The notes beneath the pieces are model-generated. The model had not been told where the DNA came from. It saw only the letters and a list, made by a program, of their open reading frames with translations, and searched no databases. Both the position numbers and the translations under genes were made by a program. A DNA stretch of 40,812 bases from Candidatus Hydrogenedentota bacterium (GTDB taxonomy: Bacteria; Hydrogenedentota; Hydrogenedentia; Hydrogenedentales; JAJRTN01): the NCBI GenBank assembly GCA_024278275.1, contig JAJRTN010000119.1, positions 1 through 40,812 on the forward strand, in the 5' to 3' direction. Shown piece by piece: positions 4,275 to 38,579 of the stretch. Each line of letters opens with the position of its first letter. Positions within the stretch are counted from its first letter, which is position 1.

Positions 4275-6167
4275 ATGAGTTTCCCGATTGATGTGAGTCC
4301 GTACCAGTCCGTGGCCATCGACCCGGCCCAGGGCACGATAACCCCGGAGCAGAAGGAGCAACTGCTTAAGAACATCCAGATTGTGCGCGATACCATCGTG
4401 TTCTACACGGCCATCGCCGATGCGCGGGGCTATGGCGGGCACACGGGCGGGGCCTATGACATCACCCCCGAAGTGATCATCGCCGATGCCTTTATGAAGG
4501 GCAGTGACCGCTTCTACCCGGCTTTCTTCGACGAGGCGGGCCACCGCGTCGCGATCCAGTACGCCATGGCCGCTTTCAACGGCGACATGCCCTTCGAGAA
4601 GCTCCTCCACTACCGCGCGCCGGGCGAAGGGCTTTATGGCCACCCCGAGCTGGACGCCAGGCTGGGCATCAAGTTCGCCTCGGGCCGCCTGGGCCACATG
4701 TGGCCTTTTGTCAACGGTGTCGCCCTGGCCCACCCGGAGAAGGTGGTCTTCCTCTTTGGCTCGGACGGCGCCCAGCAGGAAGGCGACGATGCCGAAGCGG
4801 CGCGCCTGGCCGTGGCCCGCGATCTTAACGTGAAGCTCATCATTGACGACAACAACGTCACCATCGCCGGTCACCCCAGGGAATACCTCAAGGGCTATGA
4901 CGTGGCCCGGACCCTCGCCGGTCACGGCCTGACGGTCACCGAGTGCGACGGCGAGGACTTCACCCGCCTTTTTGCGCAGATGGTGAACGCGGTGAACACG
5001 GACGGTCCCGTAGCGGTGGTAAACCGCCGCCCCATGATGCCCGGCATCGCCGGCATGGAAGGCCAGTGCGCGGGGCATGACGTGATCAAGGCGGCCGTCG
5101 CCATCGAGTATCTCGAAGCGCGGGGCCACCAGGAAGCGGCCGATTACATCAGGAATATCGAGAAGATCGGCAAGCCCGGCCCGTTGAAGGGCAGCACGGA
5201 AGAAACGTGCAGCAACCGCTCCGAGTTCGGCAACATCGTGAGCGACATTATCGACACGATCCCCGCCGAGGAACGGGCCGCCCGCGTGGCTGTTATCGAT
5301 TCGGACCTCGAAGGCTCCACGGGGCTCAAGAACATCAGCAAGCGCCACCCGGATCTCTGCTTCAACGGCGGCATCCAGTAGCGGGGCAACTTCTCCGCCG
5401 CCGCGGGCTTCGGCTTCGCCAAGGGCAAGCAGGGCATCTTCAGCACCTTTGGCGCCTTCATTGAAATGATCCTTTCCGAGGCCACCATGGCGCGTCTGAA
5501 CGACGCCAACGTGATTTGCCACTTCTCTCATTCCAGCATCGACCAGATGGCCGACAACACCTGCCATTACGGCGTGAACATGATGCTCGCCCACTCGGGC
5601 CTGCCCGAAGGCGACAAGACACGCCTCTATTTCCCCGCCGACGTCAACCAGCTTCGCGGCATCATGAAGGCCATCTGGAACGATGAAGGGCTTCGCTACG
5701 TGTTCACCACGCGCGGCGTGGTGCCCTTCGTCTGCACGGAAGACGGCGCCAAGGTCTACGGTGACGACTATGTCTTCACCCCCGGCAAAGACGAGATCAT
5801 CCGCGAGGGTTCCGCCGGTTACGTTGTTTCCTACGGCGACATCCTTTGCCGCGCCCTCGACGCCGTGGAGCGCGCCCGCGCCGAGGGCATCGACGTGGGC
5901 CTCGTCAACAAGCCCACGTTGAATGTCATTGACGAGGACATGATGCAAAAGATAGGCCAGACCGGCTTCGTGCTGGTGGCCGAAAACCAGAACCTGAACA
6001 CGGGGATCGGCAGCCGTTTCGGTACGTGGCTCCTCGAACGGGGCCTTACGCCCAGGTACGGCATCAGCGCGGTCGAGAAGGGCGGCGAAGGCGGTGTCCA
6101 CGAGCACATCCCTTACCACCACCTCGATGGCGACAGCCTGCTCGCGAAGATCAAGTCCCTGGCATAG
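4275..6167 (+). CDS. tkt: Transketolase interrupted by one in-frame TAG (codon 369)
   Basis: Read through the TAG at 5379-5381, the frame encodes a full-length 630-residue transketolase, the thiamine diphosphate enzyme of the pentose phosphate and Calvin-type sugar rearrangements. The N-terminal part has the YGGHTGG motif and the ThDP/Mg motif GSDGAQQEGDD...DDNN (about 160-195). The part after the stop has RGNFSAAAGFG, the SSIDQMADN segment and the C-terminal domain (VVSYGDIL, LVNKPTLNVID). The TAG falls between GGIQ and RGNFS, where relatives have ERGNFS; by alignment with E. coli TktA (GVRE-FGM) this is the ThDP-activating Glu. No other lesion occurs in 262 following codons. SD AAGGGGAG precedes ATG 4275. 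It may be a nonsense mutant, an assembly error or a recoded gene. The next ATG (5466) lacks an SD and would omit conserved residues. Confidence 0.9.
5379..5381 (+). other. In-frame TAG at the catalytic Glu position of transketolase
   Basis: Context CAG-TAG-CGG. One substitution (GAG to TAG) would account for it. The stop splits the PYR domain, so neither half corresponds to the naturally split N/C transketolase subunits of some archaea. Confidence 0.85.
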
Positions 6168-37232: not shown

Positions 37233-37310
37233 ATCAGCTATGGTGTGCTGAAACACGCCCTGCGATACCGCCGTACACGATTAGCATTCTAAAAGACGGA
37301 GCACACCAAC

Positions 37311-38575
37311 GTGAGTACTTCGGAATCTTCAAATAGCGCGCGCGTGCATGTTCTGGACAACGGCCTTACGGTGAGCATGGAGTGCCTGCCCTATCTTCGC
37401 TCGGCTTCCGTGGGCGTCTGGGTTCACACGGGATCGGCCGATGAACGGAACGGGGAAAGCGGGTTGGCCCACTTCCTTGAACATCTCTTCTTCAAAGGCA
37501 CCAAGACCCGAAACGTTCATGAACTCATGGCGGCTGTTGAGTCGCGCGGCGGTCACCTCAATGCCTTCACGTCCCGTGAATACACCTGTCTTTACGTGAA
37601 GACCCTGGACGAGCATGTGCCCGTGGCCATTGAAATCCTGGCCGACATCGTCAAGAACTCCCTCTTTTGCGATCTCGAAAAGGAGCGCAATGTCATCCTC
37701 GAAGAAATCGCCTCGGTGGAGGACACGCCCGACGAATATGTCTTCGATCTTCTCGCCGAGTACCATTGGCCGAACCATCCCCTCGGTCGCTCCGTATCGG
37801 GTTCCACCGAATCCATGCTCAAGCTGGGGCTGGATGAGGTGAAGCGTTTCTATGACGCGTGGTACCGGCCCAACAACCTGTTCTTTTCCATCGTGGGTAA
37901 CCTGGACGAGACACGGGTCCTGGACCAGGTTGTCTCCGAGTTCGGCGAGCTGGCGCCGCGCGAACTGCCGCCCCGGCACCAGCCCCCTGTTTTCCGGGCC
38001 GGCGTCCACACGGTGGACCGTGATGTCGCCCAGGCCCACGTCTGCCTCTCCTTCCCCGGCCCCACGCTCCACGACGCCGACCGTTACGTATGCGACATGG
38101 TGAGCAGTATTCTGGGAGGCGGGTCCACGTCCCGCCTTTTCTAGAAAATACGTGAAGAAGAGGGCCTGGCCTACAGTATCTACACCTTCGATTCCTTTTA
38201 CCGCACCACGGGTGCCATCGGCATCGCGGCCACGGTGGCCCCGCAGAATTACGCCAGGACCCTTGACCTCACCTTCTCCGAGATTCTCAGGTTTTGTGAG
38301 GAAGGCGTCGGCGAGGAGGAACTGCAAATGAACCGCGAGCAAATCAAGGGGGGCATGCTCATGGCGCTGGAGAGTACCTTTTCCCGCATGTCGCGCATCG
38401 CCCGCTCCCTCATGTACCACGGCCGCATCGTCGGCGTGGACGAGGTGATCGCCAAGGTGGATGCCGTGACCGCCGAGGAAGTCCGGGACTTCGCGCGCCG
38501 CACCTTCACCCCCGGGAATTGCGCCCTCACCGTGCTCGGCCCCACGGGCGGCCACGTGCTGGAAAGGATTCCCCT

Positions 38576-38579
<4 letters not shown>
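37311..38579 (+). CDS. M16 (pitrilysin-type) zinc peptidase interrupted by one in-frame TAG (codon 278)
   Basis: Read through TAG at 38142-38144, the frame encodes a 422-residue single M16 peptidase of the MlpA/YmxG or mitochondrial-processing-peptidase-beta type. The inverted zinc motif HFLEH lies near residues 52-56, the distal Glu is in [20 protein letters not shown], and the C-terminal half has [27 protein letters not shown]. Relatives read SSRLFQ-x-IRE there (Bacillus MlpA has SRLFQDVRE), so TAG replaces Gln (or Glu). The frame continues intact for 144 codons to GTGA, overlapping dut. It starts at GTG 37311 with GGAG upstream. pnp-M16 adjacency also occurs in Bacillus. It may be a mutant, an error or a recoded gene. 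Confidence 0.9.
38142..38144 (+). other. In-frame TAG at the conserved Gln/Glu of the M16 SRLFQ motif
   Basis: Context TTC-TAG-AAA. One transition (CAG to TAG) would account for it. Both flanking halves align to the family without gap or frameshift. Confidence 0.85.

Follow-up and report, generated by a model that had tools for sequence, protein, structure and literature searches.

An internal TAG at the catalytic glutamate codon of an atypical Hydrogenedentota transketolase gene is probably an error of the assembly

The window, the whole 40,812-nucleotide stretch of DNA analyzed here, is a complete contig of a Hydrogenedentota draft genome (5.35 Mb, 200 contigs, 96.2% complete) and contains a transketolase-like gene at positions 4275-6167 of the forward strand that is interrupted once, by an in-frame TAG at 5379-5381 (codon 369) in the column of the catalytic glutamate. 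The assembly contains the TAG but the organism most likely does not, and we consider a wrong base in the consensus, with a normal gene in the living cell, the probable explanation. A consensus error, or else an ordinary broken gene, is likely because about a dozen similar stops were found and no decoding machinery was detected in the genome. According to the base-error reading the organism would have an ordinary, intact transketolase-like gene, and the consensus of this draft, a metagenome-type assembly, would be wrong at one base, with T called for G in a GAG codon. The transketolase TAG would then be one of roughly a dozen stops scattered over the surveyed 28% of the genome, produced by an error of the guanine-oxidation or low-coverage type, and the base in the living cell would differ from the one assembled.

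The gene comprises 630 codons followed by a TAG that is its ordinary terminator (6165-6167), and the frame is open from 4275 to 6164 apart from codon 369. The read-through frame scores above the Pfam cut-offs for Transketolase_N, Transket_pyr, and Transketolase_C, so that all three domains are present, with the internal TAG falling within Transket_pyr. None of the NCBIfam transketolase models is matched above its cut-off, the best reaching 222 against 575 bits with glutamate written at the stop, and on this sequence evidence the gene is therefore classed as an atypical transketolase; the plain name transketolase used in the earlier note agrees with the domain content and needs that qualification. 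The nearest annotated relatives are from Hydrogenedentota drafts, and the family is common to Hydrogenedentota, Planctomycetes, Cyanobacteria, and some drafts labelled Asgard archaea. All 49 aligned relatives of the same order have Glu, encoded by GAA or GAG, in the codon 369 column, and we take this residue to be the ThDP-activating glutamate established for the transketolase family. Across phyla, too, Glu stands there in all 126 homologous alignments that were left once wrong-frame matches had been filtered out. With X written at the stop, codon 369 aligns to a Glu in the C-terminal chain of the split transketolase from Carboxydothermus (PDB code 6yaj) and also to a Glu of the transketolase 6rjb. 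As assembled, the gene thus has a TAG in place of the catalytic glutamate of its pyrimidine domain, and the agreement of relatives, phyla-wide alignments, and PDB chains shows the earlier observation of a TAG at this residue in an otherwise open frame to be right.

Split-chain transketolases (6yaj/6yak) resemble the interrupted gene in being two-part enzymes with an aligning catalytic Glu column, and they also occur in the same order. On this model the stop could mark the boundary between the two chains of a natural transketolase, the second having its own start, and a frame of 233 codons does begin with the ATG at 5466. We give this arrangement next to no chance, as natural splits lie between domains and keep the glutamate, whereas the break here cuts the pyrimidine domain in its middle and eliminates that residue. 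The first ATG is 28 codons past the stop with no coupled start, and full-length homologues in relatives are single-chain at the break. In the natural splits of the order the N-terminal domain is separated from the pyrimidine domain, as in relative G001, where TAG and then ATG stand at the domain boundary, which bears out the earlier statement that the interrupted gene is not a natural split. The canonical split transketolase is also found in 7 of the 14 order relatives tested and is absent in the other 7 and in the source genome, and for about half of the genomes tested from the order the atypical gene was the sole transketolase recovered. For one relative (G007, 95% complete) the searches made recovered neither the atypical gene nor a canonical transketolase.

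A coding-potential survey of 1.48 Mb (28% of the genome), with its candidates then aligned to Pfam, PDB, and relatives, identifies 11 conserved genes, distributed on many contigs, that are each interrupted by a single stop. TAG interrupts seven (transketolase, M16 peptidase, M23 peptidase, UroD-like, XerC/D-type, GH95, and carbamoyltransferase), TAA three (PepF, LarE, and a sugar-isomerase-like TIM barrel), and TGA one (PriA, where the stop separates two domains encoded in a single frame). The UroD-like, M23, and LarE lesions are based on homologous alignment across the stop, with no above-cut-off Pfam domain spanning it, and those stop columns of PepF, PriA, GH95, and the TIM barrel that were read rest on PDB and plasmid homologues. 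Uniform substitution at the codon usage of the source genome predicts TAG, TAA, and TGA in proportions of 0.53, 0.29, and 0.18, and the observed counts are 7, 3, and 1. The earlier note reported a lesion that is real in the assembly, and a second one lies in the same window: the survey and homologous alignments place an in-frame TAG at 38142-38144, in a Glu/Asp column (14 Glu and 5 Asp among homologues) of an M16 metallopeptidase frame with stop-to-stop coordinates 37293-38576 on the forward strand. Two of the 11 genes therefore sit in the window, where about 0.3 would be expected; the nine outside it are at loci L210, L211, L193, L228, L234, L241, L246, L201, and L218. The same survey of 0.8 Mb from relative G014 gives no convincing internal-stop lesion, its strong candidates having a start codon 1-5 codons past the stop, as in gene pairs. 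At equal rates the probability of zero lesions in that relative is 0.009, and the excess of internal stops that an assembly error would give is thus seen (11 lesions in 1.48 Mb of the source genome, no convincing one in 0.8 Mb of G014), in a comparison with a better assembly that differs in quality as well as in biology. Eleven lesions in 28% of the genome are also within what real pseudogenes could give.

The residues replaced bear on the direction of change. Four TAG sites lie in conserved columns, and Glu predominates in each of them (transketolase, M16, M23 with 8 of 8, and UroD-like with 6 of 7); the stops therefore appear, from these codons, to have arisen by G-to-T changes (GAG to TAG). 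The nominal p value for four of four TAG codons deriving from GAG is 0.002 under uniform substitution at source codon usage, for sites that were picked for their readable columns. The XerC/D-type and carbamoyltransferase TAG sites fall in variable, mostly non-Glu columns, and among the TAA sites the PepF column is variable, the LarE residue is not Glu in 6b2o, and the TIM barrel has Glu in its closest homologue. Counts of internal stops are known to track assembly error and to vary with coverage and platform (Cooley and Wright 2024, PMC11017572); the spurious pseudogenes of that study resemble the present lesions in being single internal stops in intact conserved genes with a genome-wide rise, whereas metagenome-assembled genomes were not covered there and reassembly from reads was possible, the consensus sequence alone being used here. 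Guanine oxidation during library preparation produces G-to-T sequencing errors (Park et al. 2017, PMC5521083) that would change GAG to TAG and GAA to TAA, and a base error of this type, which in the source genome is deduced from four codons only, would account for the whole lesion pattern.

The main rival is a genuine nonsense mutation that had reached fixation or a high frequency in the population sampled and would make the transketolase and the other interrupted genes recent pseudogenes, and we regard it as the less probable of the two, though a serious contender. The remainder of the frame is intact, as it would be after a very recent mutation, and the source genome has the most private changes at near-invariant transketolase columns (19, the next highest genome having 12). 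These changes could hint at relaxed selection; many of them need at least two base changes and look like ordinary divergence. Among the genomes searched, the source genome alone represents its family, with no same-family or same-genus relative, and an excess of missense changes in the window genes, tried as a test for error, is ambiguous because the genome is simply divergent. A search of the source genome for a second transketolase, which the earlier note had called for, found none in the 96.2% complete draft. The other Transketolase_N matches are frames of 895, 639, and 322 amino acids, which by their length and domains we read as pyruvate-dehydrogenase-type and DXS-type ThDP enzymes, and since these are other ThDP enzymes and no second copy was found, loss of the transketolase should be costly, which argues against a dead gene. 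That PriA and a XerC/D-type recombinase are among the interrupted genes counts against the mutation as well. Stops in decaying genomes usually arise by C-to-T change at CAG or CGA or by G-to-A change at TGG, and the glutamates at the four TAG sites imply G-to-T change instead. A mutator lineage lacking MutY was rejected, MutY being present above its cut-off. The earlier note had left three options, namely insertion of glutamate, a dead gene, and a wrong base, and the last is best supported because single stops are scattered over the genome and a GAG-to-TAG pattern is seen, with the dead gene following it and glutamate insertion falling away on the evidence below.

Decoding of the TAG as glutamate, by a suppressor tRNA or partial reassignment, would restore the catalytic residue and leave the enzyme whole, and the predominance of Glu at the four conserved TAG columns is what such decoding would give. 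If it were translated in this way, the stop would represent a use of UAG that is new for bacteria, in the active site of an enzyme. What the source genome shares with the known recoding systems (pyrrolysine and the UAG-to-Gln and UAG-to-Glu codes) is the occurrence of in-frame UAG within conserved genes; it differs from them in its machinery. None of its 41 tRNA genes has a CUA anticodon, an absence that in a draft of this completeness is not proof; the relatives have GAA or GAG at the codon, and both observations agree with what the earlier note had set against decoding. The best PylS match in the source genome is 25 bits against a cut-off of 178, and pyrrolysine was rejected on this basis, as was UAG reassignment with loss of RF1, which is intact (526 bits against a cut-off of 423). 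TAG is the terminator of 147 of the 481 long training ORFs and of the transketolase-like gene itself, and the expectation that only UAG would interrupt conserved genes failed, TAA and TGA lesions being present too. Because of these five observations glutamate insertion is very unlikely, and the mostly non-Glu columns of the XerC/D-type and carbamoyltransferase sites also stand against it. Slighter still is the chance that in this lineage a divergent tRNA, missing from the draft or unrecognized, occasionally inserts glutamate at UAG, and perhaps at UAA, with key enzymes, transketolase included, needing readthrough. An assembly-error pattern at GAG codons, the reading preferred here, can mimic UAG-to-Glu recoding in draft genomes, which concerns screens for alternative codes. 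Two TAG codons in relatives were rejected as conserved counterparts of the internal stop: the one in G033 is at residue 624, near the C terminus, and the one in G001 is the normal end of the N subunit of its split transketolase.
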